Of a stretch of DNA of 64,000 bases, positions 23,902 through 54,196 are shown piece by piece. Source of the DNA: Halobacteria archaeon HArc-gm2. GTDB taxonomy: Archaea; Halobacteriota; Halobacteria; Halobacteriales; Haloarculaceae. Location: NCBI GenBank assembly GCA_025517465.1, contig JAOPKE010000005.1:124001-188000 (forward strand), given 5' to 3'. A model generated the notes under the pieces. It saw only the letters and a list, made by a program, of their open reading frames with translations. It was not told the origin of the DNA and did no database searches. Within the stretch, counting starts at the first letter, position 1, and each line of letters opens with the position of its first letter. Both the position numbers and the translations under genes were made by a program.

Positions 23902-24225
23902 TCAGTTGTACCCCCGCCAGCGGTGGCCGCACTCCTTGCACTTGAAGAAGCGCGTCGGCGGTTCGTCGGCCGAACCCGTTTGCTTGATCTCGTACCAGGC
24001 CTCGCCGTGGCCGCAGTCGTCGCAGGTGACGTCCTTGGCCGTCGGCTTCCCCTCGAAGTTGGCGCCCTCCTCCGTCTCGATGAGTTCGTCGCCGGACTGG
24101 GCCTCGGTGCTGACGAACGCGTCGGCCTTCTCCTGATCCTTGGCGACCTCCGCGCCGCAGGACTTGCAGACCATCACGTCGCCGTCCGCGTGCATCATCG
24201 ATCCGCAGTCGTCGCAGAACTGCAT
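23902..24225 (-). CDS. tfs: Transcription factor S (TFS, TFIIS-like)
   Basis: A 107-residue archaeal TFS. The N-terminal zinc ribbon is FCDDCGSMM...CKSCG. The C-terminal ribbon CDDCGHGEAWY...FKCKECGHRWR carries most of the RNA-cleavage domain. The usual acidic hairpin (DE) is represented by QTGSADEPPTRFF. TFS stimulates transcript cleavage by backtracked RNA polymerase. Its 5' end is the attachment site of the 30 kb element, and its 3' end is duplicated by the HNH insert, yet the frame is intact. Its native promoter now lies near 54226. Confidence 0.95.
   Translation of the reverse strand: MQFCDDCGSMMHADGDVMVCKSCGAEVAKDQEKADAFVSTEAQSGDELIETEEGANFEGKPTAKDVTCDDCGHGEAWYEIKQTGSADEPPTRFFKCKECGHRWRGYN
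24205..24225. repeat. Left attachment repeat (tfs side)
   Basis: The 21 bases are exactly the first codons of tfs on the reverse strand (MQFCDDC). They recur at 54176-54196. The core is bounded by inverted GCAGT/ACTGC arms. Sequence differs immediately outside on both sides, as expected for att sites. Confidence 0.85.
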
Positions 24226-24230
24226 CGTGT

Positions 24231-24252
24231 GTTATTAGAAACTATTAACCGC
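24231..24252 (-). promoter_or_regulatory. Element-supplied promoter now upstream of tfs
   Basis: On the reverse strand, GGTTAATAGTTTCTAATAA lies ~8-25 bases before the tfs ATG, giving two TATA-like boxes. It is inside the integrated element, so integration replaced the original tfs promoter. The spacing to the ATG is shorter than that of the native TATA at 54226, so strength may differ. Not proven. Confidence 0.4.
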
Positions 24253-24274
24253 AGGTATTTCATCTTCGATACTA

Positions 24275-24895
24275 ATGCCTCCTGACCCGGAGAATGCGCC
24301 AACCGATTCTGATGATGTTAGCATGACTACTGTATCTGCTCAAGTGGCCGAGAGTAAAAAAGCCCGCTGGGAGCAAGCAGTTGAGGAATCTGATGAATAC
24401 GATAGTGTTTCCAACCTCATCCGAATCTCTGTCACTCGTGAACTCGGTGACGAATACGTGTATCAGAAGAAGTCACTAGTGGGTCAGGGGAACATAGACT
24501 TCGATACTGACGAGCTTCTCAACGAACTAGACAAACGGTTCGAAGACGTGAATGACCGCATCGACCGTCTTGCCGCTGAGAAATCTGACCGAGTAGAGCG
24601 GAACGCTAGCCTGACGAATGAAATCATTGACCACGTACCAACGTTGCCGACGATGGATGTCGCCCGCGACTGGATAGACCAGCGAACGGACCACGAAGGG
24701 GAGCTGTTAAGCGAACACATCGAACCCGACGACGAAGGTCGGGCAATCGCATCGTCGATTCGCCTTGCGAACTATTTGGACGTGGATAACCACGATGTTC
24801 GTCAAGCGATGTATAACATAGAGAAGGGGAGCAGTCGCTTCAAAACCATCAGAGAACGCGGTGAGACGTGGATGTTCGCTATGGGGGGCGACTAA
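24275..24895 (+). CDS. RHH-like regulator with coiled coil
   Basis: A 206-residue protein (or ~190 if the ATG at 24323 is used). Residues ~17-60 (TVSAQVAESKKARWEQAVEE...VSNLIRISVTREL) resemble a ribbon-helix-helix DNA-binding motif. A charged helix around residues 85-110 suggests dimerisation. The C-terminus (RLANYLDVDNHDVRQAMYNIEK) looks like another helical DNA-binding element. It lies immediately upstream of the integrase with a 4-base gap, so it may control integration or excision. Confidence 0.65.
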   Translation: MPPDPENAPTDSDDVSMTTVSAQVAESKKARWEQAVEESDEYDSVSNLIRISVTRELGDEYVYQKKSLVGQGNIDFDTDELLNELDKRFEDVNDRIDRLAAEKSDRVERNASLTNEIIDHVPTLPTMDVARDWIDQRTDHEGELLSEHIEPDDEGRAIASSIRLANYLDVDNHDVRQAMYNIEKGSSRFKTIRERGETWMFAMGGD

Positions 24896-24899
24896 TCTA

Positions 24900-26003
24900 A
24901 TGAGCGAAAAAACGCAGGACCCCATCACTCGCAAAATCGATTATTCGGGTCAGGACTGGACACTAGCTCGCGCTCACAAGATGTGGGTCGATGACTCCAT
25001 CAGCGAACAGGACGATAATGACGGGAATGCTCACGCGATGCGGTATAATATCCCGAACCGATTCCGTGCGTGGTTAGCAGGAGATGGTCTCGTTGCAGAG
25101 GGTCGTGACGTAGACTATGAGTACCCAACAGAAGCAGACTACCACCTCCCAATAGAGGATGCAGAAGAACTCACGGTCAATCATCACAAGGGTTGGTACC
25201 GGGCTCTACACGAGCACGGGTGGGCTTCAACGACAATCAACTCGTACCACACTCTCCTTTCAATGTGGGCAAAGTGGATGACGGAGAAAACTATCCTTGA
25301 GGAGGACTTTCACGAGAATCTCCGAAAATACGGTGACCCAGACGACCTCCCCGGTATCGATTCTACGAAGGGTTTCAAGGAGGAACAGTTCAAGGACGAG
25401 ATTCAATACGCATCTCTTGAAGAAGTTGATGAGATGTGTAAGTACGTTACCTCTCCGAAAATTCAGACGGAATTAGCCATTCGTCTGATGTTCCAGACAG
25501 GGGTTAGGGAGGTGGAGCTACGGAACATCGAACTAACTGACATCGACCGGAAGAAACGCAAAATCAAAATCATCACTGCGAAGAACGGGAAGCTTCGGGA
25601 CGTTTGGTATCACCCTTCATTAGACATGCTCATGGACCGATATTTAGATGTCGAACGAGACGAACTGAACTACTCTGACTCTCCGTATCTCTTCCCCACG
25701 AAATACTCTCCACAGATGGCTCGCAATACACCGAACCAGAACGTTACCGAATGTGCAGAGAAGGCAGGCATTCAAGACTACACTGAGCCTGATGCATCGG
25801 GAAAGCGTCGGCGTCGAATCACTGCACACGCACTACGCCACGGATTCGGTGTCCAGTGTGCGAAAAACGGGATGCATATCAAGTCGATACAAGAACTGCT
25901 TGGCCACCAGCAAATAGAGCAGACTAAAAAGTACATTCAGTTCGCTACTAAAGACGTTAAGAACCAATACGACCACTACGGCCCGATGGAATCGAAGTTG
26001 TAG
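24900..26003 (+). CDS. int: Tyrosine recombinase (integrase)
   Basis: A 367-residue tyrosine recombinase. A SAM-like core-binding domain (~85-145) precedes the catalytic domain. All catalytic residues are visible: Arg203 (TGVREVEL), Lys228 (TAKNGK), His310/Arg313 (HALRHGFG), His336 (LLGHQQ) and Tyr345 (TKKYIQF). It is next to the left attachment repeat, so it very probably integrates this element into tfs. It begins with ATG at 24900, four bases after the preceding stop. Confidence 0.93.
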   Translation: MSEKTQDPITRKIDYSGQDWTLARAHKMWVDDSISEQDDNDGNAHAMRYNIPNRFRAWLAGDGLVAEGRDVDYEYPTEADYHLPIEDAEELTVNHHKGWYRALHEHGWASTTINSYHTLLSMWAKWMTEKTILEEDFHENLRKYGDPDDLPGIDSTKGFKEEQFKDEIQYASLEEVDEMCKYVTSPKIQTELAIRLMFQTGVREVELRNIELTDIDRKKRKIKIITAKNGKLRDVWYHPSLDMLMDRYLDVERDELNYSDSPYLFPTKYSPQMARNTPNQNVTECAEKAGIQDYTEPDASGKRRRRITAHALRHGFGVQCAKNGMHIKSIQELLGHQQIEQTKKYIQFATKDVKNQYDHYGPMESKL

Positions 26004-26044
26004 ATATCCTCGTTTGTATAGACGACCTCACACTCGTTCGTCTG

Positions 26045-26114
26045 TAGCCACGTATCCACTGGTGTACGTTCGAACGTACGTAGCCACGTACCTATGGATG
26101 TACATAGCCACGTA
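26045..26114. repeat. GTAC-rich repeat cluster downstream of the integrase
   Basis: Three copies of TAGCCACGTA (26045-26054, 26081-26090, 26105-26114) surround a perfect 16-base palindrome GTACGTTCGAACGTAC at 26064-26079 and further CGTAC steps. It lies between the integrase and the 75-residue zinc-ribbon gene, upstream of a TATA-like GTTATAC. It is probably a multi-site protein-binding region, for example for an excisionase or repressor. Confidence 0.7.
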
Positions 26115-26190
26115 CATCGCTATGTCTGCGCGTACATTACAGAATATTGATAAGAGTTATACCCCTGCCCAGTATGGGGTTTGCCGAAGC

Positions 26191-26418
26191 ATGACTGACA
26201 AATTGCGAGTCCTAGTCGAAGTCGAATGCCCGAATTGTGGGGATACTGTCCGCTGGGTCGTCCACGTGGGAGATGATGGTTGGGCGTCGCTATCTTCAAC
26301 GGGATGCCCCGGTTGCGACTGCATGGGAATTCATCAGGGCGACATCTACACTGACTCAGACCGTATCGATGCTGCTATCGATAAGGATACTGCCCCTGTT
26401 GTTATCGGGCAAGAATAG
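26191..26418 (+). CDS. Zinc-ribbon microprotein
   Basis: A 75-residue protein (begins MTDKLRVLVEVECPNCGD). Two cysteine clusters (CPNC and CPGCDC) could bind zinc or another metal. The ATG was chosen because a TATA-like GTTATACC lies ~35 bases upstream. The upstream CCCCTGCCCAGTATGGGG inverted repeat at 26162-26179 may be an operator. No family is recognised. Confidence 0.6.
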   Translation: MTDKLRVLVEVECPNCGDTVRWVVHVGDDGWASLSSTGCPGCDCMGIHQGDIYTDSDRIDAAIDKDTAPVVIGQE

Positions 26419-26591
26419 CATCCCACGGTACGAATAAAGACGAACTCCCACCGACCGTGGGTAATCAACCCTGTACACAGACTTTGCCTCGTATCGGCGT
26501 CCTGTGGCGTCTGGAGTATTGAGTTACTGATGTACTAACTTAACCATCAACTATCCGACATAGATTTAGGGTTTTATATAGTATATGAGGT

Positions 26592-26846
26592 ATGGCAAGT
26601 ACCCCATTCGTCTGGATTAGCCTCCATATCGACGACATCCGCGAAATTCCATTGGACGAACCGTGGACGAAGCAAGACATCGACTTCTTTGATGAGAACA
26701 AGCAGTTGTTCTGCCAAATAACCAATAGACGGTCTAACAAGCGGATTGCCGAACCCGTCGGCGAAGATTCTGATACCCGTGCGACGAAGTGGCAGATTCG
26801 ACAAGAGGTACGAGATTACATCCAACGAGAGTACGACATCCAGTAG
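26592..26846 (+). CDS. Hypothetical protein preceding the virion module
   Basis: An 84-residue charged protein (begins MASTPFVWISLHIDD) without cysteines or hydrophobic segments. A strong TATA region (GTTTTATATAGTATATG) lies just upstream. A T-rich run at 26863-26880 follows the stop and may terminate the transcript before the virion genes. The function is unknown. Confidence 0.55.
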   Translation: MASTPFVWISLHIDDIREIPLDEPWTKQDIDFFDENKQLFCQITNRRSNKRIAEPVGEDSDTRATKWQIRQEVRDYIQREYDIQ

Positions 26847-26897
26847 CACAATCTCGTAGACGGTTTTTTGTAGTCTTTTTGACATATATACATATGC

Positions 26898-27365
26898 ATG
26901 GCAAACGACAATTACATCGTACTGGTAGAAGACCACCTTGACGAGCTGTTGCTCGCACTCTATGTGTTCGCATTCGGCTCGCTCATGGCTGTCTTCGGCA
27001 ACTTCGACTTCCTGCCGGTCCTGACGGATGGCCCGGTCTTCAGTCTGGATGGACAGTTCACAGCTATTGGCGACCCTGCTGCTGATGGGACGGTCATCAC
27101 GTGGGCAGGTGCTCTCGCTATCCTCGCTGGTGTGACAACCTATGTTACCAACCTCGGCGTAGAGGCTCTGACAGAGAAGCCTGCAGACTTTGAGGTGGTC
27201 GATGCCGCCCTCGCAGTGGGTGTCTTCGGTCTCCCTGCAGTCATCGCGGCAGACCTCTTCTCCGTTCACACGGATTACATCGCAGGCGAGCCTGTCGCCT
27301 CCATTGGTGTATTCGTTGTTGGTGTCATCGGTGCCATCATCCTGAAGGACACCGACCAGAACTGA
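26898..27365 (+). CDS. VP3-like virion membrane protein
   Basis: A 155-residue protein with four hydrophobic segments (around residues 11-33, 73-93, 106-125 and 135-153) and short polar loops. It is the first gene of the virion module. In pleolipoviruses a small four-span protein (VP3 type) lines the inner face of the membrane vesicle and precedes the spike gene. The match here is by size, topology and position, as no motif was identified. Confidence 0.7.
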   Translation: MANDNYIVLVEDHLDELLLALYVFAFGSLMAVFGNFDFLPVLTDGPVFSLDGQFTAIGDPAADGTVITWAGALAILAGVTTYVTNLGVEALTEKPADFEVVDAALAVGVFGLPAVIAADLFSVHTDYIAGEPVASIGVFVVGVIGAIILKDTDQN

Positions 27366-27390
27366 GCATTTAGCTCAAATTTCTTTCACC

Positions 27391-27579: not shown

Positions 27580-27581
27580 CC

Positions 27582-27743
27582 ATGAAGCAGATAGGAATTG
27601 CACTAATCGCGTTCGTCCTGTTCGACCACGCCCTTGAGGGATTGATTGAGACGTTTCTCGGTCAAGACCCGTCAGTGGCGTCTTTGGTCATCATCGCGAT
27701 TGGCGCGGTCCTAGTACTCCGTTCAAATCAGACCAATGAGTAA
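27582..27743 (+). CDS. 53-residue membrane microprotein
   Basis: Starts three bases after the preceding stop codon and overlaps the spike start as ATGAGTAA. It has two hydrophobic stretches (MKQIGIALIAFVLF and SVASLVIIAIGAVLVL). The tight coupling on both sides supports real translation. It is likely a small envelope-associated protein of the virion module. Confidence 0.6.
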   Translation: MKQIGIALIAFVLFDHALEGLIETFLGQDPSVASLVIIAIGAVLVLRSNQTNE

Positions 27744-29976
27744 CACCAATACCAAGCGGCAGGTCATCACGGTCCTCGCAGTCATCGCTATGGTTCTCAT
27801 CGCTGGCGTCCCCATCATCGGGGTCGTTGCGGGAGAACTGGGCGACGAAGGCTGTGGAGACGAATTTCAGGCAGCCGCAGAACGAAACATCAATCCTGAC
27901 GATGGGTTTGTCGGCAAAGTCGTAGGAAGCTATGGGGCTTCCATCGATTCTGTCGTCCAGAACGTCATCGACCCATGTTGGGCAGAACAGTCCGGGGAAG
28001 ACCCGAACAAATCAATCAACGACACGTACCAGTCCGCGCTGGAACGGTACGACGTAGTTGAGCAGAAGTCTCGCATCACTGATTCTATCGCGGTAGATGC
28101 GGAGACCTCCAAGCAGCCCGTCCGAGAGTCTGCAACCTCGTCGATGGGTACGTACTACTACAACGATACGGCCAACGCAACCGAGGAAGGATTCCTCCAA
28201 GCGGGTACGGACTCCATCGATAATGACTACCGCTTCCGAGAGGCAGGGGCAGTCCTCAACTACAACAACGACCTCCGATACGTTCAGAACGGAGTCTACG
28301 AGGAACTTGCCGCTGAGAATGCGACGGAACATCTCCACGTCTACGTCAATGGCACGGAGGTGACTACGCCGTCGAACTCGGCAGACATCACCTTCAGCGT
28401 CCCCGACAATGAGAGTGACACTCGCAACGGCTCTGATGGCGTTGCGTACACTCTCGCGAATAGTGACACTCTGAGAGCGGGTACCATCACAGTCAACGGG
28501 ACTGCGTACACGTTCGAAGACAATCTGGCCGTCACGATGACCGACCCTGCAGGCGAACTTCAGGAAGTCCCGATTGTCGGACGTGACCTTGGTACGGAAT
28601 ATGGTTCAACTGCTTACACTCCTGAGGTTAGTCCATCAGAGGCAGACATTGTAGCAGCTACTGATGGGTCAGGAGATTACGAATCAATTCACACCGCAAT
28701 GGGTGCGGCTACTGATGGTCAAACCATCTATGTGGAATCTGGTGATTATTCTGCTCCGGGTACATTCACTGAAACTTCTGCTAACATCACAGTGATTGCC
28801 GAACCGGGTGCAGTCTACAACAGTGAGCAGTATTCAGCAATCCGACCCAGTGCGAACCTGACAATCAAAGGTCTGACCATTGACGGACCTACTCACGTGT
28901 TTGACATCCAATCTGCGAGTTCTGTCGTGGAATTGGATTACGTGACTGTCCAGAACGTTTCTACTGGTCTTGTGGACACAGGAAACAGCGTCTCTGGATA
29001 TACTGGTACACTGAACAACACCCTCCTCCTTAGTGGGACAAACAAGCTCGGTGAATTTGGGTCATCGGCTGTTGAAGGTGAGGAATTCCACACCCGGCAG
29101 TTCGACTCCTATACCCAGAATTACATCGACCAGCAACTCACTGACCGGGCGGAGATTCTGAACGCCTTCGGGACGACTTCGGAAGGTTTTGTCTCCGACC
29201 TGTGGGCACGTCACCAAGCTGGTGATGTCGGTCCTGACTACTACGGTGGCTGGGAGAAGCTGGCGCAGGACGGACTCTCTGAGGACGACCTCGGTACCCG
29301 GGTTTGGTTGGATATCCAGTACGACCGGATGGGTTACTCGTCGCTGAACGAGACTCGTGCGACCACGGACGTTGTGGTTGAATCAGGTTCGACAGTCTAC
29401 GGTAACGCTCAGGAAGGTAACGCAGTGACCCTCTCGTCCGATAAGACCTACAGCGGTCACATCTGGACGAAGCACCCGCCTGCATCAGGTGAGTGGTCCA
29501 CGAACACCACCTATAGCACCGACAACCTCGGTGGCCCGCTCTTCGTGACCTACTACGGTCAGGAAACGAAGATTGAGGATGGTAACCTGACGACTGAAGT
29601 CGTCTCCAAGACGGTCGCCGTCACGGGGACCTTCAGCTTCGATTCCATCACTACGCAGGGTGGTGAGTCCATCACGACTGCTTCGCACGACACGGACAAC
29701 TACCGTGCGTCCACTGACCCATACAACGCATCATCCGTAGTCGATGATATGGCGTCACAGGACGACCGGATGGAAAACTACCGTGACGCAGCCGCCGAGA
29801 ACGACGATGGCAGCGGTGGTGGTGGTGCTGGAGATGGCTGTGGTATCAGCTTCTTCGGCGTCTGTTCGGGCATCTCGTCGATGCAGATTAGCCTCCTCGG
29901 AGGATTCATCGTCCTCATCGTTGCAGGTTACGTGTTCCGACCGCTGCTCGGGACGCTCCAGAACCTGACAGAATAG
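27736..29976 (+). CDS. VP4-like spike protein with a beta-helix insert
   Basis: A 746-residue surface protein. An N-terminal hydrophobic signal segment (residues ~8-32) is followed by an extracellular part with many Asn-x-Ser/Thr sequons and a C-terminal anchor (residues ~713-740) after a Gly-rich linker and GCGISFFGVC. This is the organisation of pleolipovirus spikes, which mediate receptor binding and membrane fusion. Residues ~302-435 (VAATDGSGDYESIHTAMGAA...) look like a pectin-lyase-type right-handed beta-helix. This stretch (about 28639-29041) uses AT-richer codons than the flanks, suggesting acquisition. The protein is longer than the ~500-residue spikes described. Confidence 0.8.
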   Translation: MSNTNTKRQVITVLAVIAMVLIAGVPIIGVVAGELGDEGCGDEFQAAAERNINPDDGFVGKVVGSYGASIDSVVQNVIDPCWAEQSGEDPNKSINDTYQSALERYDVVEQKSRITDSIAVDAETSKQPVRESATSSMGTYYYNDTANATEEGFLQAGTDSIDNDYRFREAGAVLNYNNDLRYVQNGVYEELAAENATEHLHVYVNGTEVTTPSNSADITFSVPDNESDTRNGSDGVAYTLANSDTLRAGTITVNGTAYTFEDNLAVTMTDPAGELQEVPIVGRDLGTEYGSTAYTPEVSPSEADIVAATDGSGDYESIHTAMGAATDGQTIYVESGDYSAPGTFTETSANITVIAEPGAVYNSEQYSAIRPSANLTIKGLTIDGPTHVFDIQSASSVVELDYVTVQNVSTGLVDTGNSVSGYTGTLNNTLLLSGTNKLGEFGSSAVEGEEFHTRQFDSYTQNYIDQQLTDRAEILNAFGTTSEGFVSDLWARHQAGDVGPDYYGGWEKLAQDGLSEDDLGTRVWLDIQYDRMGYSSLNETRATTDVVVESGSTVYGNAQEGNAVTLSSDKTYSGHIWTKHPPASGEWSTNTTYSTDNLGGPLFVTYYGQETKIEDGNLTTEVVSKTVAVTGTFSFDSITTQGGESITTASHDTDNYRASTDPYNASSVVDDMASQDDRMENYRDAAAENDDGSGGGGAGDGCGISFFGVCSGISSMQISLLGGFIVLIVAGYVFRPLLGTLQNLTE

Positions 29977-30000
29977 CGCGGTAACTACCTTTCGCGGTTT

Positions 30001-30498
30001 TTATTGAGCGGCGATGTTGGACATCCACTTACCTTGTTCAACGAGACCGTTCCATCGGTCGAACTCTTCGATGGGAGCATGATGGATGTAGCCAATCATC
30101 AAGAGACCTTTTTCGTAGAGTTTCTTTAGGAGGTACACAGCACCTCTGAGTGAGATTGATGCAGCGATTGCTTCCACTGGGAGGAATTGATTTGCGAATT
30201 CAGCTATAGCTGATTTGAATTCGGTGAGCAGACCAGTCATCCCGATAGTTGCGGCTGCTTCTTCCAATTCCTCTTTGAGGTTGTTTATCTGCCCTATTCT
30301 TCGAACAACTCCGACCAGCGGGTCGGCTAGCTCAAGTGCGACCTGACGCCCATCGCGATGGATACCGACCCAATCGCTGACTGAATCTGTCGTGTACGTA
30401 ATCCGCAAATTGTAGAACGGGAGTTTATCGTACGGATGGCTGTCTACAGCCCGCAGAGATGACGGAACAGGTCCAGAAGTGGAACCTTCGTCCTGCAT
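30001..30498 (-). CDS. Hypothetical protein antisense within the virion module
   Basis: A 165-residue protein (begins MQDEGSTSGPVPSSLRAVD). A helical central part (residues ~75-125) includes an amphipathic or weakly hydrophobic stretch. It lies between the spike and the next structural gene on the opposite strand. A TATA-like GCTTAAATATC is ~22 bases upstream of the ATG. It may be an inserted cargo or a control gene that splits the virion genes into two transcripts. The function is unknown. Confidence 0.6.
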   Translation of the reverse strand: MQDEGSTSGPVPSSLRAVDSHPYDKLPFYNLRITYTTDSVSDWVGIHRDGRQVALELADPLVGVVRRIGQINNLKEELEEAAATIGMTGLLTEFKSAIAEFANQFLPVEAIAASISLRGAVYLLKKLYEKGLLMIGYIHHAPIEEFDRWNGLVEQGKWMSNIAAQ

Positions 30499-30601: not shown

Positions 30602-31312
30602 GTGAAGCGCACTAGCATCCTCGTGGGATTGCTTGTGCTTCTGATGGTTGCGACGGGCGGTGTTCTCGCACAAGAAGGAACATCGACCCCGACAGCAACT
30701 CCAGAGGACAATCAATCCACGAACGAGACGGAGACCTCCACTCCTACCCCGAATGGAGGTGAGAATGTACAGAATGGGTCAGTCACTATCCCTATCGGAG
30801 AGTACGTCCAGTTAACGGATTCTGACAAAGGTGACGTGAAGCAGGTGCGGAAAGACCTCGGGAGCTATGGCCACATCTACAAGTTCGAAGCGAATCCTGA
30901 GAACGACACAGCGTGGTTGTATATCAAAGCCGACCGAGATATGCGGATTACTCTTGCAGACGCACAAGGAATTGACCTCAGCGAGTCCAGCGGGTCGTAC
31001 TTCCTGAAGTCTTACCACCTGCTCAAGAGCGACGAGCCTTACAAAATCCTCGTCCAAGCAACTCGTGACGACAAGAATCAAGGGGTGACAATTACAGGAG
31101 ATGGGACTCCTGACGACCGTGGTATCTGGATTTCGACAGGGAATGCTGGCGGGAGTGGAATCCTACCCGATAGCGTTGAGAAACATCACCTGTACGTAGC
31201 CGCACTTGCGGGTGCGCTTGCGGTAACGGAGTATTTGTTCACGTGGGTTCGCCGTATCAAGAAGAAACTCCGCAGGAACGTCCTGACGGTCACAGACAAG
31301 GTGAAACCATGA
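30602..31312 (+). CDS. Signal-peptide membrane protein of the virion module
   Basis: A 236-residue protein with a GTG start. A signal peptide (MKRTSILVGLLVLLMVATGG), a Thr/Pro-rich stalk, a beta-rich ectodomain (residues ~60-195) and a C-terminal helix (YVAALAGALAVTEYLF) followed by basic KKKLRRN. It occupies the ORF6 position of pleolipoviruses. A TATA-like GGTTTTATGTA lies ~30 bases upstream. The stop overlaps the next start (ATGA). Confidence 0.65.
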   Translation: MKRTSILVGLLVLLMVATGGVLAQEGTSTPTATPEDNQSTNETETSTPTPNGGENVQNGSVTIPIGEYVQLTDSDKGDVKQVRKDLGSYGHIYKFEANPENDTAWLYIKADRDMRITLADAQGIDLSESSGSYFLKSYHLLKSDEPYKILVQATRDDKNQGVTITGDGTPDDRGIWISTGNAGGSGILPDSVEKHHLYVAALAGALAVTEYLFTWVRRIKKKLRRNVLTVTDKVKP

Positions 31313-32121
31313 AGGAACGTCTACCCAATCCCGATATCTCCAAGACCAACATCGACCTGCCAGATATCACCATCGGCAAGGTCGCGATTGGAGCTGTCAT
31401 CGTGTTGTTCGCCGCAGACCACTTTGGCGTCATCAACGTGGGGCAGAATCTCCCCGGGTGGATGAACTGGAGCCTTATCCAGACGTTCGCAGTCATCTAC
31501 ATCGCTGTACGTCTGTTCATCGCCCCACAGGTGACGAAGTGGTTGAAGAACCTGTTCCGTCCAGATATGCAGTGGATTCAATCGCTTGATGCAAAAGGAA
31601 TTGAGACAGCATGGCGACTTACGCACCCGGAGACGATTGTCCACGCTGATACTGGTCGTGTGGAAACCCGTGAAGACCCGAAAACTGGAGAGACAATCGC
31701 CACTGTTCGCGATATCCTTGGATGGGATGAAGAGAAGCCCGACGTTCTGCACGTCGAAGGTGTGAACGAATGGGATGATATCCCTTCGGATGACCAGATT
31801 ATTGCGGACAAGACGCAGTACGCCCAGTATCGCGACATTGAAGAAAAGGCACGCGAGGGGCACAAGATTCGCCAAGGTCTCCCTGCGTTCAAGACGAAGC
31901 TGGAGGGTCTTCTGACCAAGAAGTTCGCCGTGATGTACGAACAGTCCACCTCTGGTCAAGGTGGGTACATCGACACGCTCCTTGGCAAGTCTGTAGAGGA
32001 ATACAAGCAGTTGGAGGGTGAGCCTGACAACTTCGTCCGTGAGTACGCCAATCAAGAAATGGTGGATGATGAGGAGGTGAATGACCTCTCAGACGACGAT
32101 GAAGACGGTGATTCAGAATGA
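31309..32121 (+). CDS. Membrane-bound virion-module protein (ORF7-like)
   Basis: A 270-residue protein. Two hydrophobic segments at residues ~22-43 and ~54-74 are followed by a long charged cytoplasmic domain. It is translationally coupled at both ends: ATGA overlap with the preceding gene and with the ATPase. It ends in -DGDSE, whose codons carry the GGTGAT ribosome binding site of the ATPase gene. Its position corresponds to the ORF7-type membrane protein next to the ATPase in pleolipoviruses. Confidence 0.65.
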   Translation: MKERLPNPDISKTNIDLPDITIGKVAIGAVIVLFAADHFGVINVGQNLPGWMNWSLIQTFAVIYIAVRLFIAPQVTKWLKNLFRPDMQWIQSLDAKGIETAWRLTHPETIVHADTGRVETREDPKTGETIATVRDILGWDEEKPDVLHVEGVNEWDDIPSDDQIIADKTQYAQYRDIEEKAREGHKIRQGLPAFKTKLEGLLTKKFAVMYEQSTSGQGGYIDTLLGKSVEEYKQLEGEPDNFVREYANQEMVDDEEVNDLSDDDEDGDSE

Positions 32122-33326
32122 CGGACTACTACACCCCTGCACTGCTTCGACACCGACTGGACGACTATGCGAAGCAATTAGGAGGCGCTCCGACTCCCGA
32201 AGCTCTCGGTCTGGAAGACGAGTATGCTATGGAGGCAGTCATCCAGTTGATTCGCCACTACCCAGTTGAACATCCAGATATGCCTGATGACCCGCGAGAG
32301 TGTGCCCTCTTCAAGGACATCATCGGTGAGAGTGGTACAGCATCGATTCAGACTGCACTTCGGAACGGCCAGCTAACCGAACTCAATTACTGGAAAGGAA
32401 TCACGGACAACCGCATCGAAGCCACGGGATACGAGAAACTCGTTGGAGAACTCATCCCTGCAGCCCAGCAGATGCTCATCAAGGGTGCGAAAGGGAGTGG
32501 TAAATCTACGAAAGCTGCCGACCTCGTATCCAAGCTCCACTCCGAGTTCGATGGGAACCTGAAGGTGATTACGAACATCAAGGGACTGGAAGAGCATCCT
32601 GACGTGGAGTTCGCGGAGAAAATGAGTGACTACCTCCTGTTCGCACGTCGCCCGGGGGAGAAGGTTGCACTCATCGACGAGGCATCCACCGTGATGGCAG
32701 GATACGCTTCACTCGGCGGGTCTGATGTCATCGACCAGTTCGGGCGGGCTATCAACGCTCTGCGGAAAGGAGAAGGTGGCTCTACACGCTTGATTATCAT
32801 CGGGCACCGTAACGACGCAGACATCGCTCCGATGCTTCGACGACAGTCTGACGTTGTGATGTATGCCGATGGGAAGGTGAAGGAAGACCTCATCGACAAA
32901 GCCACTGTCTACGGGTCGTGGGACGAATTCAAGAAAGAACGTAGTTCCTACAAGGTATACGGTCTCCAAGACATCAATGACGACTCTCCGTGGAGCTTCG
33001 AATCCAACTACTTCGCCACGTTCGAATTCGACCTTGACGACCCAGAGAATCAGATTCGGAGAGGGAAGATTGTGGACAACTGGGAGTCCTACCAAGAGAG
33101 TCCACCAAGTGGCGAATCTGGAGAGGAGACGGCTCAAGACACCCAATGGGACACTGACAAGGTGAACGCCGTGGTCGATTACCTGAATAGTGACGAAGGT
33201 CTTCGGCCAATCGCTGAACGTCACGGTACCGATAAGACCACTCTTGGACGCTGGAAAGACGAAATGGTGGAAGCCAACGAGGTCGTCCGGGGCGAGTTGG
33301 ACGGCGGTGAAGAAGACGAAGAATAA
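32118..33326 (+). CDS. VP8-like P-loop ATPase with C-terminal HTH
   Basis: A 402-residue ATPase. Walker A is GAKGSGKST at residues 123-131, Walker B is VALIDEA near 184-189, and a later IIIGHRNDAD strand resembles sensor motifs. The C-terminus (DYLNSDEGLRPIAERHGTDKTTLGRWKDEM is split here as residues ~355-385) forms a helix-turn-helix. Pleolipoviruses encode one conserved P-loop ATPase at the end of the virion module. This is its counterpart, with the HTH suggesting DNA contact. Role in packaging or assembly is inferred. Confidence 0.82.
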   Translation: MTDYYTPALLRHRLDDYAKQLGGAPTPEALGLEDEYAMEAVIQLIRHYPVEHPDMPDDPRECALFKDIIGESGTASIQTALRNGQLTELNYWKGITDNRIEATGYEKLVGELIPAAQQMLIKGAKGSGKSTKAADLVSKLHSEFDGNLKVITNIKGLEEHPDVEFAEKMSDYLLFARRPGEKVALIDEASTVMAGYASLGGSDVIDQFGRAINALRKGEGGSTRLIIIGHRNDADIAPMLRRQSDVVMYADGKVKEDLIDKATVYGSWDEFKKERSSYKVYGLQDINDDSPWSFESNYFATFEFDLDDPENQIRRGKIVDNWESYQESPPSGESGEETAQDTQWDTDKVNAVVDYLNSDEGLRPIAERHGTDKTTLGRWKDEMVEANEVVRGELDGGEEDEE

Positions 33327-36442: not shown

Positions 36443-36937
36443 CTACGTAGTTCGAAGACGGTCTGTTCGCGGTTCGTAGACTTCCCCTTTCTGCTTCAAC
36501 TGTAGAAGCTCGTCTTTGGCATCATCCATCGACATACCGAGGTATTCCGCAAGATAGAGAACTTTATCCTCAGGAGCGCCCTCGTCGTGCTGGCTCTCCA
36601 GCTTACTAATCAAGCCCTTCAGGTTCTGAATTCTCTCCCGCTGGTCGTCGAACATCGAATCATCGATATCGTATTCCTCACGGATGTCCTTGATGACGAT
36701 TTCCGACCCATCCACGGATACGAAGAATGGTGGGTCCAGACGCTTGCTAATACGACCTGTTATCTCTTCGACCGGGAGGCTGGCACTGAACAACCCTTCA
36801 TCAAGGTCGTAGCTGACGTTGGCTGCGCTTCGTTCGATGGCATCATTGACAATCTCGTTGATTTCGTCGGCCATCGAATCCAAGGTCTCGTCAACTTCGG
36901 TGAGTTGCTCGTGGACTTCTTCGAACTGTTCCGCCAT
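36443..36937 (-). CDS. Coiled-coil protein with C-terminal winged helix
   Basis: A 164-residue protein. Residues 1-~40 form a charged coiled coil (EQFEEVHEQLTEVDETLDSM). A central beta region follows. The last ~60 residues (YLAEYLGMSMDDAKDELLQLKQKG) resemble an MCM-type winged helix. A strong ribosome binding site (AAGGTGATGGGAGG) precedes the ATG on the minus strand. It may be a DNA-binding regulator or replication accessory. Confidence 0.6.
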   Translation of the reverse strand: MAEQFEEVHEQLTEVDETLDSMADEINEIVNDAIERSAANVSYDLDEGLFSASLPVEEITGRISKRLDPPFFVSVDGSEIVIKDIREEYDIDDSMFDDQRERIQNLKGLISKLESQHDEGAPEDKVLYLAEYLGMSMDDAKDELLQLKQKGEVYEPRTDRLRTT

Positions 36938-37118
36938 TGTCCTCCCATCACCTTGGGACACAGTGTCTACGTGCAAGGGTAGAGTCATAAATCGACTAGG
37001 TGAAGAACCGTTTCTTCTCCCCTGATGAAGCAGTTCACCCGATATCCTAACTACTGACGACAGATTCCAATATGTAGTTAGGACAATACTTTTGCCCATT
37101 ACTTACGTAATCTGATAT

Positions 37119-42404: not shown

Positions 42405-43202
42405 ATGGTTCAAACACCAGACGAGGATGAGGCGCACGATGTGTTCATTTCCTACTCACACAACGATTCGAAAGACGTTGTAGGATTACTTGTGGAAGAA
42501 TTGCAAGCGTACGGGCTGGATGTGTGGTATGACGATATTTCGATGTCCATTGGAGATAGCCTCCGGAAAGAGATGGACATAGGCCTTCGAAATTCACGCT
42601 ACGGCGTCATCGTCTGTTCTGAAGGCTACTTCGAAGGAACATCTGAATGGGAATTCAACGGTCTCGTAAAGAAGCACATCGACGAAGAGAACGTGATTCT
42701 ACCAGTTCTCCACGGTGTTGGGCACGATGATATCCTTGAAGAAAGCCATAGCTTGGCTGACCTGAAGTACGAAACAATTGATGAGGATAACATTGAGTCT
42801 GTTGCTACGAGTATATACAGCACAGTAACAGGCGAGGATGGTGGGGATGGTAATCTGAGAGAGGACGGCGAATCTTTGATGGCTTCCATCGATATCCGAT
42901 TCCAAGGAAACTTCACACCCGATATCGGGGACGGGATAACGATTACCTCGTGGAGAAACCATCACGCACCCCGGTTCGAAGAATTGGAAGCAGCCGAAAT
43001 CCGAGATGAGAATGGTGTTGAGTACTCCAGCAGGTCTGGAGGAACAATAATGAAAGTCGCAAGGATAGATGATGAACCACTGGAAGGCGTTGTCTCAGAC
43101 ATCAAGACCGTCCAGTCCAATAAAATTGAGTTCACTGTTCGAATTAGACAGAGCAGACTTGATGAACTCTCTGACGACCCTTCTGACTACGAAATGTTGT
43201 GA
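42405..43202 (+). CDS. TIR-domain protein
   Basis: A 265-residue protein. The TIR domain spans residues ~10-140: HDVFISYSHND (box 1), the GLDVWYDD strand, ISMSIGDSLRKEMD and the catalytic-region EWEFNGLVKK with Glu83 aligning to the NADase glutamate, then VILPVLHGV. The C-terminal ~110 residues are a beta-rich domain that may act as sensor. TIR proteins in prokaryotic defence cleave NAD+ when a partner or ligand is sensed. A TATA-like AAATTTATTC lies ~30 bases upstream. It is alone here, with no CARF or STING partner seen. Confidence 0.85.
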   Translation: MVQTPDEDEAHDVFISYSHNDSKDVVGLLVEELQAYGLDVWYDDISMSIGDSLRKEMDIGLRNSRYGVIVCSEGYFEGTSEWEFNGLVKKHIDEENVILPVLHGVGHDDILEESHSLADLKYETIDEDNIESVATSIYSTVTGEDGGDGNLREDGESLMASIDIRFQGNFTPDIGDGITITSWRNHHAPRFEELEAAEIRDENGVEYSSRSGGTIMKVARIDDEPLEGVVSDIKTVQSNKIEFTVRIRQSRLDELSDDPSDYEML

Positions 43203-44402: not shown

Positions 44403-44598
44403 CGACTCCGAGATATACGACCAATGGCGCAGGGGTGAGATTACACGTGAGGAAGCTGAAACCCGCGTCGAAGACAATTGGGAGGTCGTCAGTCAGATTG
44501 GCTCAGTCCGATGGGCGAGGTCGGGAGAAGATAGCGAGAGAGTAAGCGACGAGCTGGACGGGCTGTTCTCCAGTGACGAAGGTGGTGATAATGAGTAA
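44395..44598 (+). CDS. Hypothetical acidic small protein
   Basis: A 67-residue protein (begins MSNDSEIYDQWRRGEITREE), resembling the SHOCT-like short helical motif (YDQWRRGEITREEAE). It ends -GGDNE with GGTGGTGATAATGAG overlapping the recombinase start. Probably a small cofactor or regulator of the recombinase by position. Confidence 0.5.
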   Translation: MSNDSEIYDQWRRGEITREEAETRVEDNWEVVSQIGSVRWARSGEDSERVSDELDGLFSSDEGGDNE

Positions 44599-45250
44599 GA
44601 CAGAATCCAAGACTACGAACGAACCAGTGGTGCATCGATACATCAACATCCGAGAGGTAGACCCATTGCGTGACGCGGCGCACGACCGCCCGCTTCGATA
44701 CGACTCTCTCGGAATCCGTCTCCGTGACGAAACCTTCGTCACCCTTGCCATTGACCTCGGGCTCCGTGCGGAGGAACTGCGAGGACTCAAGCGGTCGATG
44801 TTCCGATTGAAGGATGGAGAGGTGACCATCCCCGGGCACGTGCAGAAGGACTACCCAAGGGAAGATATCACACCCGGTGCAGTCACGATGCGACTTGACC
44901 CGTACGGCCACTTCGGAACAGTTCGTCTGCTCCGCTCGTACTTCCAAACCGAATGGTATCAAGACCGAGACAGCGAGTACGTGTTCCCCAGCAGGCAGTC
45001 CGACCAGATGTCCACGGAGTCGATGCGGAACGTCGTCGAAGACCTCGCCGTCCACGCCGACGTTACCGTTCACCGTTCAGACGGGGAACCTGCCGACCCG
45101 TCAGAACTGCATCCGCATGCGTTCCGTCACAGTCTCGCGAACTACATGCTCGCGGACAACGACACGCGCTTGGTCGAGGTGAGGAATCGGCTTCGACATC
45201 GAAGCATCACGACGACAGAACGAGTCTACGACCACTTCCAGCGGCGTTAG
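44591..45250 (+). CDS. Second, shortened tyrosine recombinase
   Basis: A 219-residue protein that consists almost only of the catalytic domain. Visible residues are Arg59 (LGLRAEELRGL), His176/Arg179 (HAFRHSL), His203 (LRHRSIT) and Tyr213 (TERVYDHF). The usual N-terminal core-binding domain is missing. It is the last gene of a coupled cluster of micro-genes. It may resolve multimers, invert a segment or be a second integration system in a composite element. No att-like repeats were found beside it. Confidence 0.85.
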   Translation: MSKTESKTTNEPVVHRYINIREVDPLRDAAHDRPLRYDSLGIRLRDETFVTLAIDLGLRAEELRGLKRSMFRLKDGEVTIPGHVQKDYPREDITPGAVTMRLDPYGHFGTVRLLRSYFQTEWYQDRDSEYVFPSRQSDQMSTESMRNVVEDLAVHADVTVHRSDGEPADPSELHPHAFRHSLANYMLADNDTRLVEVRNRLRHRSITTTERVYDHFQRR

Positions 45251-47564: not shown

Positions 47565-47565
47565 C

Positions 47566-48402: not shown

Positions 48403-48421
48403 TGTTAAATATATGGTAGGT

Positions 48422-48727: not shown

Positions 48728-48877
48728 GGTAACGTCCTGATTTTCAAACCGTTGTAACCATTTCTCACGACCCTTTTCAGCGTCGATGCAGGCGTTCTCT
48801 TGATGTAGTATATTAAAACCCCGCCACTTGTCGGATTGGCGACACACTAATAGGGTAAGTAGTATCTATTATCATAT

Positions 48878-49821: not shown

Positions 49822-49858
49822 AGCCATTTTTCTCCTTCCTTATTTAACGTTTAGGTAA

Positions 49859-50103
49859 TTTGTAGACTCTAAGAAGTGTACCTCTACACAAACACCATAT
49901 AATATAATAAACTAAATCTATTATAATAGTATAGTATAGTATAGTAGAAGTAGAAATTGTAGAGAGACACTTCTCTGAATCTACAAAAAACATCTCTATA
50001 TAAATCCGTCTGTAGACAGGTCGAAAACCACTCAATTAGAATAGAAAATTTCTATTATAATATCGTGTATGTGTAGGTACACACACTTCTCAGAGTCTAC
50101 AAA
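49859..50103. other. Candidate replication origin with three 21-base iterons
   Basis: TTTGTAGACTCTAAGAAGTG (plus one base) at 49859-49879 is repeated in reverse at 49967-49987 and 50083-50103 with 1-3 mismatches. The spacer is extremely AT-rich, with TATAG repeats (49928-49944) and palindromes AGAAAATTTCT and GTGTAGGTACAC. It fills the 344-base gap between the RHH gene and the wHTH gene. Inverted iterons around an AT-rich unwinding region are typical of plasmid and viral origins. Confidence 0.6.
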
Positions 50104-50165
50104 TCTTGACTAACGCCCCGAATCTTTGTTCCACGAACGCAGAGAGGTAGAACACCACCGCGTCA

Positions 50166-50600: not shown

Positions 50601-50762
50601 ATATATTATATGAGTGAGAAAGTGCAAAGGTGTTAGGTGCTATCCCGATATTCGGAGTCTATCTTTTTCACCCCCATCTGTAACACATCACGATGTACCC
50701 CAGACACGTCTCACGACCCCCTTCTATGGAGGGCACCCTCAAATTGGACTTAGACTGGTGGG

Positions 50763-50811
50763 GGACACACCTGATTCAGAACGCTCCCGGACACCCCTCA
50801 TTCAGACCGCT
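50763..50811 (+). repeat. Tandem pair of the dispersed 22-base motif, copies 4 and 5
   Basis: GGACACACCTGATTCAGAAC (plus three bases) at 50763-50785 and GGACACCCCTCATTCAGACC (plus three) at 50789-50811, a 26-base period. It runs into the 3' end of the gene at 50802. Upstream of the wHTH regulator by ~165 bases. Confidence 0.6.
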
Positions 50812-51098
50812 TTCTCATCAAGTATCGCTGCGAAAATGGTTCCCCATTCCTTGCCAAGGAATTCTTCTCCGACATCTGATGACCGATAGTATGCATCCAG
50901 AATGGCGATGGCGACCTCTTCTTGACTATCTAGACTGGTGATAGTGTCATTGGCTTCTGAACCGTCTGGCCAGAAAGTGCGGAGGTTTGTGGAGTTATCT
51001 CCGTACAAATGGGCTTCTGCTCCGTTATCCCACGAGATGGTAATTGAGTCACTACGCTGTTTCACGTCGTCGATGTCAGGCAGGTTTGTATTTGCCAT
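50802..51098 (-). CDS. Hypothetical protein
   Basis: A 98-residue protein (begins MANTNLPDIDDVKQRSD). A beta-rich N-terminal half precedes a helical half (SQEEVAIAILDAYYRSS). No motif is recognised. AT-rich codon use like its neighbours. Confidence 0.5.
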   Translation of the reverse strand: MANTNLPDIDDVKQRSDSITISWDNGAEAHLYGDNSTNLRTFWPDGSEANDTITSLDSQEEVAIAILDAYYRSSDVGEEFLGKEWGTIFAAILDEKAV

Positions 51099-51327
51099 AC
51101 GCCCTCAACGAAAAACTCACTGTATATACTCTGGCATCTTGATTTGAATCAATGTCCCGGGGGAATTTCCCCACAGGAGAACTTGTGATAAGCAAGCGGA
51201 GCCGATGGAGGGCATCGACCCAATACATAAGAATACTGTCAGTTATATAAAACCACCTACGGATGTTACTTTCCTCAGATTTTGGGGTGGGGGTACACTA
51301 ATGGGATAGGTTGCAATTCTGTTATAT

Positions 51328-51678
51328 ATGGCAACTGATAAGCAAGCCATGTACAAGACGTACCGAACCTCTCTGGATGAGGTGGTTGACATCGACCACG
51401 ACCACCGAGAGGAACTCACGACGACGTTTGTGAGTGCGGCAAACTACTACACGAATCACGGCATCTCTAGCGAGACTGTGTGGCCTGCGCTGGCTCAGGG
51501 CTACACGAACCTGACTGACGATGGGGTCTCCCCGACGCCGACCCACAGTCAGCGAGAGCAGTATTTCCACTCCCACTTCGACCTGAGCGAGTGGGTGGAG
51601 ATGACTGACGAAGGACGTGACCGACACACGAACGAACTGATGGCCAATCTCGTGAAGGAGGTGGCAGGTGATTTCTAA
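51328..51678 (+). CDS. Hypothetical protein, first gene of a five-gene coupled operon
   Basis: A 116-residue protein (begins MATDKQAMYKTYRTSLD). It is helical with conserved-looking Trp and His (ETVWPALAQGY). It ends VAGDF, where GGTGATTTCTAATG provides ribosome binding site and start for the next gene. Its N-terminus is echoed by the gene at 48422. The function is unknown. Confidence 0.55.
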   Translation: MATDKQAMYKTYRTSLDEVVDIDHDHREELTTTFVSAANYYTNHGISSETVWPALAQGYTNLTDDGVSPTPTHSQREQYFHSHFDLSEWVEMTDEGRDRHTNELMANLVKEVAGDF

Positions 51679-51998
51679 TGTCGGACCAATTACTGCGAGC
51701 GGGTCAGACAATCTCTGACCTATTGGCAGACGAACTCGGTCTGACTAACGGAGCGGGGACTGACAATCCATCTGTCACCGTCCCGCGTAACGGAGGTAAC
51801 AGAGTGCGAGTGTACGCTGGTAGCTTCACGAAGGACAAGGAGTCAGCGCGAGAGCGTCGTGATGCCGTAGCAGAGGTAGTATCTGAATACGGAATCACAC
51901 CGACGATTAGGACTTCTGCACCCAATAACGAGTCTGAAACGCACTACAGTACCAGAGTCAACATCTCACAACAAGAGGTGTCCTCAGGTGATTTCTGA
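51678..51998 (+). CDS. Hypothetical protein, paralogue of 48422
   Basis: A 106-residue protein (begins MSDQLLRAGQTISDLLADE). The beta-alpha body (PSVTVPRNGGNRVRVYAGSF, ARERRDAVAEVV) matches the gene at 48422. It ends SSGDF, and GGTGATTTCTGATG couples it to the next gene. The function is unknown. Confidence 0.55.
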   Translation: MSDQLLRAGQTISDLLADELGLTNGAGTDNPSVTVPRNGGNRVRVYAGSFTKDKESARERRDAVAEVVSEYGITPTIRTSAPNNESETHYSTRVNISQQEVSSGDF

Positions 51999-52261
51999 TG
52001 TGCATCACGCGAGACCTCTGCCCAGAGTGTGGCGAGGAACTGATGGATGCAGACGTGGCGAAGGCTGAGTACATAGAGCGTGCGGAGAAAGCCTCCCACA
52101 CCGACCCGAATGACGGGATTGGTGAGGAAGAGTACTACAGTCTCGTCGCGGCGCGCATCTCGTGGCACGATTACTTTTGCCCGGGATGTGACCGAGGCCA
52201 CAACGAGGATGACTTCTGTTGGGGTGCCTGTGGCGAGCAAGTCTCGCTGGGTGAGTTCTGA
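51998..52261 (+). CDS. Zinc-finger hypothetical protein
   Basis: An 87-residue protein. CPEC near the N-terminus and CPGC with a later HNED...C form a split zinc-binding site around a helical insert. It begins at a TGATG junction and ends at another. The function is unknown. Confidence 0.55.
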   Translation: MCITRDLCPECGEELMDADVAKAEYIERAEKASHTDPNDGIGEEEYYSLVAARISWHDYFCPGCDRGHNEDDFCWGACGEQVSLGEF

Positions 52262-52479
52262 TGACGTTCACTCGCTTCGACGACCTGACCGAATCAGCGC
52301 AAGCAGAGTTCCTTGCACTGTTTGACACACAGGAAGAGGTTGCTCGGTCAGAACGGATGGGGCGTCTCTCCGAGACGGAATGGTACTTCGACTCTGATGG
52401 TCAAGCAAGAATTCAGCACCGACAGTTGGAGGGCGTTCACATTACAGCCACGGAGGTGGTCTGGGGTGTTGGTCGATGA
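52261..52479 (+). CDS. Hypothetical small protein
   Basis: A 72-residue protein (begins MTFTRFDDLTESAQAEF). The helix-strand layout lacks motifs. TGATG junction with the preceding gene and ATGA overlap with the next. Confidence 0.5.
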   Translation: MTFTRFDDLTESAQAEFLALFDTQEEVARSERMGRLSETEWYFDSDGQARIQHRQLEGVHITATEVVWGVGR

Positions 52480-53039
52480 GTACCCGACCAAGTGCGGGTG
52501 CGGACTACGAATCAAAAATGAGCGATGCACGTCGCTTCTCACCACTTCTCTGTAAACTGGTTGCAGACCGCTTCGGGTTGTCCCCGGATGAAGTTTCGAA
52601 TCTGGAGATGGCCGACGAGGGTGAGGACGTGGACCGCGACCTGAATGGCATCGACGCGGTGCTTCACTTCCCCACGTCAGGTGAGTCCACAGTGGCGTTC
52701 AGAACTCGCCTTGACGACCCACGCTTCGAAGTGGACTTCTCGCTTCGGACAGTCAGCAGGAACAACACCACAGAGTCGGAGTGGCACAAGCTCAAGCGAG
52801 CGTATCTTGGTGACGAATACGAGGGCGAGATTGCCGATTACTACTGCTTCGCCCGAACACGTGACGCACGCATCACGGATTGCTACTTGATGCGTACAGA
52901 GTGGCTCATGGACGTTCTCTGGGGTGAAGGTGGAGACCCTGAGGGCGAGTACGAAGAGCGGGCGAGTGAGAATGGAGGGTCTGCCCGGTACGTCCCTGTC
53001 GAAGATATCTCGCGGGCTGTCGTTGCGGAGTTGGAGTAG
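52476..53039 (+). CDS. Hypothetical protein, last gene of the coupled operon
   Basis: A 187-residue acidic protein (begins MSTRPSAGADYESKMSD). The real start may be the later ATG at MSDARRFSPL. A beta-rich middle (VAFRTRLDDPRFEVDFSLRT) and a helical end. No catalytic motif. The function is unknown. Confidence 0.55.
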   Translation: MSTRPSAGADYESKMSDARRFSPLLCKLVADRFGLSPDEVSNLEMADEGEDVDRDLNGIDAVLHFPTSGESTVAFRTRLDDPRFEVDFSLRTVSRNNTTESEWHKLKRAYLGDEYEGEIADYYCFARTRDARITDCYLMRTEWLMDVLWGEGGDPEGEYEERASENGGSARYVPVEDISRAVVAELE

Positions 53040-53063
53040 GGTACACACCCGATTCAGACCGCT
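53040..53063 (+). repeat. Dispersed 22-base motif, copy 6
   Basis: GGTACACACCCGATTCAGAC plus four bases. It lies ~15 bases upstream of the TATA-like GTTAAATATC of the Abi-like gene, an operator-like position. Confidence 0.6.
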
Positions 53064-53106
53064 GTCCTTCCCGGGAGGTTAAATATCAACCAGCCCACCA
53101 TCGGTT

Positions 53107-54084
53107 ATGATTGGTTGGCGTCCATTTGGGAACCGCAATTCCGAGCTGGAAGAACGGGTCCACGAGACATTTACTGATGATGCGCGAGACAGGATTGCCT
53201 ATGCGATGGCCGGGACTGTCTCCAGAGGCGAGATTCAGGAAGCCTATCAGGAATATAAAATCAACCGAGCCAACGATGTGGGCTACTTCAATACACGGAA
53301 TACGGAGCCCGCAATGGCGTCTCTGCACCAATTTATCAAGGACGAAGAGGACGCCGAAGTTCTGACTCTGTTGGAATTACTTCTCAACGAAGTATGGGAA
53401 GAGTCCAATATTTCAAGTGAAAGCCACTCAGCGGAGGCTTTGCTTGACTTGGATGAAAAACTTCGTCAAATACTGCTCGAAGAAGGGATACTGCTTGAAC
53501 TGACTCCAGACCGCGAGACGGTCGAAGAACTCGGTGTGGCTCTAGACAAATATGAGAACGGTGGCGGGAGGTCCCGCAATCGAAGGAGCTACCAGTCCCG
53601 CCCAAGTCGCGACTGGAATTTCCAGTTCGAATGGCAAGCACATGGAGCGGTCATCGACTCGGACCAAGCACTGCGGAAGCTAGGTCGGCAAGAGCGGTGG
53701 GAGGATGTGCTTGACCCATATGATGAGGCTTGGGAGGCTTATCAGAACCCACCAGTCTCGTACGTAGTTGCAGAAAAACTCTACAACGCTCTGGAAGGTA
53801 CTCTCGCAAAAATCTGCGTGGAGCAGGGGTGGAACTCAGAAGGAGACGGTGTTTCGGCCTACATTGAATCACTGAAGGATAACGGAATGTTTGGACCCAA
53901 TCCGGCAATGGTACACGAGTGGAGACAGATAGCCGAGGGGCTCAAGACAGGCGTTCAGAAGACAGGTGGGGACCGGAAGCGCCATGAGCAGTTTGACGAA
54001 GATTACGCTCTGTTGCTGCTCCATCAGGTCGGCGCATTCTTGTCGTACGTCATCTCCCGATACGAAAACGAGTACGTGGAGTGA
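53107..54084 (+). CDS. Abi_C-like (possible abortive-infection) protein
   Basis: A 325-residue protein. The N-terminal part is helical and acidic, followed by a basic Arg/Ser-rich linker (~165-180). The C-terminal ~110 residues (VSYVVAEKLYNALEGTLAKICVEQ... DYALLLLHQVGAFLSYVISRYE) have the pattern of Abi_C / AbiJ-type C-terminal domains found in phage-defence proteins. It is the last gene before the right attachment repeat, a usual position for cargo. TATA-like GTTAAATATC lies 25-30 bases upstream. The assignment is tentative. Confidence 0.5.
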   Translation: MIGWRPFGNRNSELEERVHETFTDDARDRIAYAMAGTVSRGEIQEAYQEYKINRANDVGYFNTRNTEPAMASLHQFIKDEEDAEVLTLLELLLNEVWEESNISSESHSAEALLDLDEKLRQILLEEGILLELTPDRETVEELGVALDKYENGGGRSRNRRSYQSRPSRDWNFQFEWQAHGAVIDSDQALRKLGRQERWEDVLDPYDEAWEAYQNPPVSYVVAEKLYNALEGTLAKICVEQGWNSEGDGVSAYIESLKDNGMFGPNPAMVHEWRQIAEGLKTGVQKTGGDRKRHEQFDEDYALLLLHQVGAFLSYVISRYENEYVE

Positions 54085-54175
54085 GTTCCTCTGGCCGAAG
54101 CAATGGGCGCTCGGACTCGGACGAATTGAAGAAAATATTGCCGCCAATTCTTAATAAATTCTAATAGTGGCTGGG

Positions 54176-54196
54176 GCAGTCGTCGCAGAACTGCAT
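54176..54196. repeat. Right attachment repeat
   Basis: Exact 21-base duplicate of the tfs start region (24205-24225). The sequence right of it (TGATGAGAGGGATTAG...) is the original upstream region of tfs. Left of it the element ends in AT-rich sequence. Confidence 0.85.

Follow-up and report, generated by a model that had tools for sequence, protein, structure and literature searches.

What occupies the 30 kb directly upstream of the start of tfs, the gene for transcription factor S, in the 64-kb stretch of DNA analysed here (the window), and how did it come to be there? We consider it likely that the segment is an integrated 30.0 kb provirus related to the pleolipoviruses, probably a virus–plasmid mosaic, which carries an integrase module targeting the starts of genes.

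Boundaries of the element and the empty site

The tfs gene (23902–24225, − strand; NCBIfam TFS_arch, 7.1e-22) has an intact open reading frame, and its product shares 100% amino acid identity with TFS of a congener, G006. The 21-nt sequence GCAGTCGTCGCAGAACTGCAT occurs in two exact copies in the same orientation, at 24205–24225 and 54176–54196 (attL and attR, both + strand), with no further copy elsewhere in the 64-kb window. As the initial annotation had proposed, the left copy coincides with the first 21 nt, codons 1–7, of this protein-coding transcription factor gene, and no tRNA gene was found in the window, nor any Rfam match in 22900–55000. The G+C content is 50.4% between the repeats and rises to 68.0% and 70.2% in the DNA on either side. 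Allowing one mismatch, the 21-mer is present in 175 of the 352 genomes of the order that were searched; positions were obtained for every genome with at least two same-strand copies, and two linked copies in the same orientation were found only in the source genome, those of the other such genomes being unlinked.

The empty site that had been predicted for a strain lacking the element is found in G006, where tfs is joined to the right flank through a single 21-nt copy. A predicted empty site assembled from the left and right flanks aligns with G006 at 92.6% identity over 363 nt across the junction, and the collinearity of the right flank extends for 3.4 kb at 93.9% identity. The element DNA is absent from the 40 kb around the G006 tfs locus. 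Since G006 is collinear with both flanks and lacks the intervening DNA, we conclude that the element spans 24205–54196, 30.0 kb including both att copies, in agreement with the repeat-bounded segment originally described. A chance repeat was considered as the source of the att pair and is ruled out by the repeat, the 352-genome survey, the empty site and the base composition.

Two further observations concern the surroundings of tfs. Relative to G006, the window carries a 0.9 kb insertion directly downstream of the gene (22996–23901) with an HNH endonuclease gene at 23021–23806 (PF01844, 1.6e-12); with the element at the start of tfs, foreign DNA has thus visited both ends of the gene. In another congener, G001, a second tfs copy, 65% identical to the first, lies convergently beside it (L033/L034, near 1619466–1620178).

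A distant but recognisable virion cassette

A virion gene order matching that of pleolipoviruses had been claimed, and spike, ORF6-like, ORF7-like and ATPase genes are indeed found in this order on one strand between 27736 and 33326, with one antisense ORF among them (30001–30498, − strand; no family match). The cassette extends over 5.6 kb because the spike is long. The VP4-type spike (27736–29976, +) has 746 residues, a signal peptide and a C-terminal transmembrane segment, and matches PHROGs 2231 and 24543 (phrog_2231, 7e-14, shared with HRPV-1 VP4). It is followed by an ORF6-like secreted protein with a transmembrane anchor (30644–31312, +; phrog_1938, 1.8e-6), an ORF7-like membrane protein (31309–32121, +) and a VP8-type ATPase with the Walker A motif GAKGSGKST (32118–33326, +; phrog_1979, 6e-33). 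The PHROGs matched by spike, ORF6 and ATPase are those matched by their counterparts in HRPV-1 and HRPV-3. Upstream, a multi-transmembrane protein (26898–27365, +) is tentatively VP3-like (phrog_3232, 0.029, a family also matched by HRPV-3 VP1).

Profile HMMs built solely from eight or nine isolates (HRPV-1, -3, -10 and -13, HGPV-1, HHPV-3, Harhisp1, SNJ2 and His2, the last omitted for VP3) each gave their top match, among the 57 window ORFs, at the expected gene in the expected order. The E-values, which apply to this small set of 57 proteins, are 3.3e-19 for the spike, 2.5e-25 for the ATPase, 2e-11 for ORF6, 0.0095 for VP3 and 0.0011 for ORF7. The last is weak by sequence and is placed by its position; the same HMM gives 3.4e-8 with the homologue in G002 and 1e-13 to 1e-3 with homologues across the clade. 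Single-sequence phmmer searches with HRPV-1 and HRPV-3 proteins found no match among the window proteins, and tblastn found none for spike or ATPase in the phage collection or for the ATPase in plasmids. As homology is visible by profile only, the relationship of the cassette to pleolipoviruses is real but distant. The similarity of spike and ATPase to VP4- and VP8-type proteins, on which the original proposal hinged, is thereby upheld, and classification as a pleolipovirus-related provirus is supported by the predicted virion genes: spike, VP8-type ATPase, an ORF6-like gene between them and the core gene order, all features of the Pleolipoviridae.

Within the spike, a stretch of roughly residues 290–430 resembles the β-helix of pectinesterase and pectate lyase (DGSGDYESIHTA...); the apparent insert, at about 303–420, possibly binds glycans. 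The single-sequence AlphaFold model of the spike is poor (pLDDT 40), and its weak Foldseek matches to β-helix polysaccharide lyases, the best such with an E-value of 0.06, are a hint only.

In most clade relatives (G136, G171, G257 and others), ORF6 and ORF7 are seemingly fused into one protein of about 450–490 residues. One pleolipovirus-like cassette, that of G043, also contains a microbial rhodopsin gene (L050:931–1509, − strand; PF01036, 8e-16), which overlaps the fused ORF6–7 gene and the ATPase gene; its product has the YADWxxTTP motif as well as a candidate retinal lysine (FISKHGLA). In the open-licence literature, the single paper to mention both rhodopsins and pleolipoviruses concerned head-tailed proviruses.

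An integrase family that enters gene starts

The integrase gene (24900–26003, +) lies next to the left repeat, where it had been annotated. Its product is a Xer-like tyrosine recombinase (Pfam PF00589, 8.7e-27; NCBIfam XerA_Arch, 1e-35) that matches archaeal XerA/XerC profiles and conserves the catalytic R, H..R, H and Y positions in the family alignment. On comparison with pleolipovirus proteins, as suggested at the outset, it is not of the SNJ2 type: an HMM of the SNJ2 and Harhisp1 integrases reached only E 0.11 among the window proteins and did not match it. Searches of IMG/VR with the integrase profile returned distant matches only. Directly upstream, 24275–24895 (+) encodes a small accessory protein with a coiled coil, homologues of which precede related integrases. 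A ribbon-helix-helix-like motif is visible by eye at its N-terminus; neither Pfam (no match) nor AlphaFold (pLDDT 46) supported assignment to that fold.

The integrase family is present in 87 of 392 genomes of the order (E<1e-40), usually with the small gene directly upstream. None of the 30 best loci has a tRNA gene within 1.5 kb, and at six of them (G002, G185, G151, G225, G136 and G131) the pair lies divergently at the start of rfcL. There, two copies of the core sequence GAYTGGACNGARA bound an insert of 26.6 kb in G002, which belongs to the genus of the window; in G151 and G131, second copies with one mismatch, at distances of 13.9 kb and 13.3 kb, probably mark the element ends. The pair in G136, 29.3 kb apart, is tentative, and G185 has widely separated copies in opposite orientation, as a rearranged element would. 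The elements at rfcL likewise supply the start codon and the upstream sequence, and attR of G002 retains a stub reading MADWTEK followed by a stop codon. The integrase family thus habitually enters at the starts of information-processing genes, also with elements in which no cassette was found there. In G329 (L115/L103), a related accessory–integrase pair lies beyond the 3′ end of infB and is co-oriented with that gene; gene-start entry is therefore not universal in the family.

The attachment core contains the dyad GCAGT-N9-ACTGC. Dyads of this sort are used by tyrosine recombinases, and the element of symmetry with its 9-nt centre is probably the recombination site, a reading that, with arms of only 5 bp, is a suggestion. 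Integration would proceed by recombination between a 21-bp attP core and the opening codons of tfs, which have the same sequence, so that the TFS protein is left unaltered.

Displacement of the tfs promoter

What changes on integration is the DNA ahead of the gene. The native tfs promoter region is displaced by 30 kb and now lies at 54197–54240 (−), where the TATA element GAGAGTATAA is at the same offset from the attR copy as it is from the tfs start codon in G006. What it now precedes, at the right end of the element, is a stub of 11 codons, MQFCDDCPSHY and stop in the tfs frame. The functional tfs gene is preceded instead by 49 bp of element DNA (24226–24274), a divergent intergenic region shared with the accessory gene. 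We infer that this region has promoter activity and drives tfs, promoter replacement being deduced from position; the same 49 bp would serve the accessory–integrase operon. A broader proposal, which we put forward tentatively, is that a family of haloarchaeal proviruses and kindred elements shares the two-gene accessory–integrase module as a means of recognising the opening codons of information-processing genes, tfs and rfcL, and that the divergent promoter supplied by the element couples expression of a host factor for transcription or replication to the integration switch of the provirus.

Replication genes and the state of the provirus

No known pleolipovirus replication protein was recognised. 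Among the 57 window ORFs, no HUH rolling-circle Rep of the Alphapleolipovirus type was found (best match to HRPV-1 Rep, E 0.8). The betapleolipovirus Rep (HRPV-3 ORF9/SNJ2 ORF19 type, DUF7845) and HRPV-3 ORF6 gave best E-values of 0.15 and 0.39, whereas eight relatives match the same Rep at 1e-45 to 1e-221 in the same test. HMM searches of the element found no Orc1, and spike, ATPase and integrase aside, no ORF is of the size of the Gammapleolipovirus PolB; the att-bounded integration also contrasts with the linear genome of that genus. The replication genes compared do not place the element in Alpha-, Beta- or Gammapleolipovirus. With no recognised Rep, Orc1 or PolB, the element would have to rely for replication on host functions or on an initiator not recognised here. 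Between genes, at 49858–50104, lies an imperfect inverted repeat of 70 nt that could, speculatively, be the replication origin.

A defective or satellite provirus, which neither replicates nor forms virions alone and persists by holding the promoter position of tfs, would account for the missing replication protein, for the antisense ORF within the cassette and for the lack of any spike or ATPase relative in IMG/VR. We regard this as rather unlikely: no disruption is seen in the integrase, spike or ATPase ORF, the two att repeats have not diverged, and a recent insertion would fit the empty site of G006. On the reading that we favour, the excised circle would use the cassette to leave the cell in membrane vesicles formed by budding, the route taken by pleolipoviruses.

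Cargo and the unity of the element

The description of about 20 kb of mostly unrecognised small genes (33327–54175) was borne out by the family searches, in which most of the other cargo ORFs had no match in the sets searched. Among the exceptions are zinc-ribbon proteins; a coiled-coil protein with a C-terminal MCM-like winged helix (36443–37099, −; PF21120, 9.5e-4, below the gathering score; 46% identity over 68 residues to a protein of G203); and a TIR-domain protein, probably a defence effector judging by its matches (42405–43202, +; PADLOC PDC-S66, 1.2e-39; ThsB, 2.5e-21; Pfam TIR_2, 2.2e-17). A second tyrosine recombinase (44591–45250, +; PF00589, 1e-18) is 53–85% identical to genes of other elements. 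It occurs near pleolipovirus cassettes in G000, G002, G185, G236 and G280, and also in elements with no detected cassette.

This second recombinase, with neighbours of its own that recur in G301, might suggest that two elements lie nested or in tandem, one a pleolipovirus-like provirus of 10 kb and the other bounded by the recombinase. We think this very unlikely, given that G002 has the same recombinase downstream of the cassette in one repeat-bounded element of 26.6 kb; the version with internal att sites was rejected, no internal direct repeat resembling an att pair being present.

Closer to even chances, though still on the lesser side, is an origin by capture, in which an integrative plasmid or a mobile element of another kind took up the virion cassette of a pleolipovirus and became a composite that moves in vesicles, as opposed to a virus lineage that has grown. 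The integrase is not of the SNJ2 type, the 20 kb of orphan genes and the want of a known pleolipovirus Rep fit such an origin, and the second recombinase and its neighbours are 64–85% identical to those of elements without a detected cassette, such as G301. Nevertheless, the same recombinase has a pleolipovirus cassette nearby in both G280 and G236, and G002 and G185 possess the same accessory gene, integrase, ATPase and second recombinase, the ATPase and recombinase of G002 being 42% and 53% identical to those of the window. A gene combination common to G002 and G185 argues for a lineage, not a one-off capture. A virus–plasmid composite is nonetheless plausible, as no known pleolipovirus replication protein was found. 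Moreover, pleolipoviruses themselves are believed to originate through plasmid recombination (PMC10599561), so that the readings as an enlarged virus and as a virus–plasmid mosaic overlap.

Clade and genome size

ATPases of this group occur in 18 of the 392 genomes of the order (E<1e-20), and that of the window is 36–51% identical to those of other haloarchaeal proviruses; scans of IMG/VR with ATPase and spike found no relative. In eight relatives, repeats link a tRNA gene to the other end of the element, giving sizes, provisional for the individual relatives since most of the repeats are short (15–24 nt), of 18.6 kb (Ala), 14.4 and 18.3 kb (Tyr), 19.4 kb (Arg), 17.1 and 27.9 kb (Pro), 18.3 kb (Val) and 25.4 kb (Cys). 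The 27.9 kb tRNA-Pro element contains apparent IS/transposase ORFs. Many of the tRNA-targeted elements carry the betapleolipovirus Rep. Published pleolipoviruses measure about 7–16 kb (PMC13107129), and of the isolates in the phage collection Harhisp1 has the longest genome, 19.5 kb. The unusual size noted in the initial annotation therefore stands, the element being the largest of its clade in this sample, whereas the statement that described genomes are half as large or less was slightly overstated in view of Harhisp1 and of relatives reaching 28 kb. At 30 kb, the element is at the top of the range of its clade and not an isolated freak.

Comparison with known systems

In haloarchaeal chromosomes, the clade thus reaches 30 kb. 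Its member in the window is without the usual Rep, and some members have exchanged their integrase for one that inserts the element at the start of a protein-coding gene and puts element DNA in place of the promoter region. At tfs, this would be a natural promoter exchange before the gene of an RNA polymerase factor. The closest experimental parallel is the temperate Betapleolipovirus SNJ2 (17.0 kb), the only pleolipovirus shown to integrate (PMC5867852), which has the homologous order of spike, ORF6, ORF7 and ATPase and likewise inserts into a haloarchaeal chromosome. SNJ2, however, enters a tRNA-Met gene (PMC5867852) and has an SNJ2-type integrase, the DUF7845 Rep and Orc1, none of which was detected in the window element, itself 1.8 times larger. 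One of the larger pleolipoviruses, Haloarcula virus Harhisp1 (19.5 kb), combines its virion cassette with an accessory region encoding a XerC/D-like integrase and a CopG protein; it differs in having an HRPV-3 ORF9-type Rep and Orc1, and its integrase is unmatched to that of the window by HMM. The proposed Epsilonpleolipovirus (PMC10599561), compared here by description, resembles the element in its enlarged spike and ORF6 and its poorly conserved core; it is known from metagenomes only, with no assigned host.

Protein-coding att sites have been listed for other archaeal proviruses, with different targets (BJ1, Msmi-Pro1 and NitGar-E6; PMC8371274). The pertinent section of that review describes such sites as untested for recombination and asks about dyad symmetry; neither it nor our search of open-licence papers yielded an example at the start of tfs or rfcL, which now provide defined, testable sites of this kind. 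In mode of entry, the nearest likeness is to the SXT/R391 integrative conjugative elements, whose tyrosine recombinase enters the 5′ end of the conserved protein-coding gene prfC (PMC2791158). These elements are bacterial, conjugative and about 100 kb long, with unrelated cargo; they work alike and are not kin.
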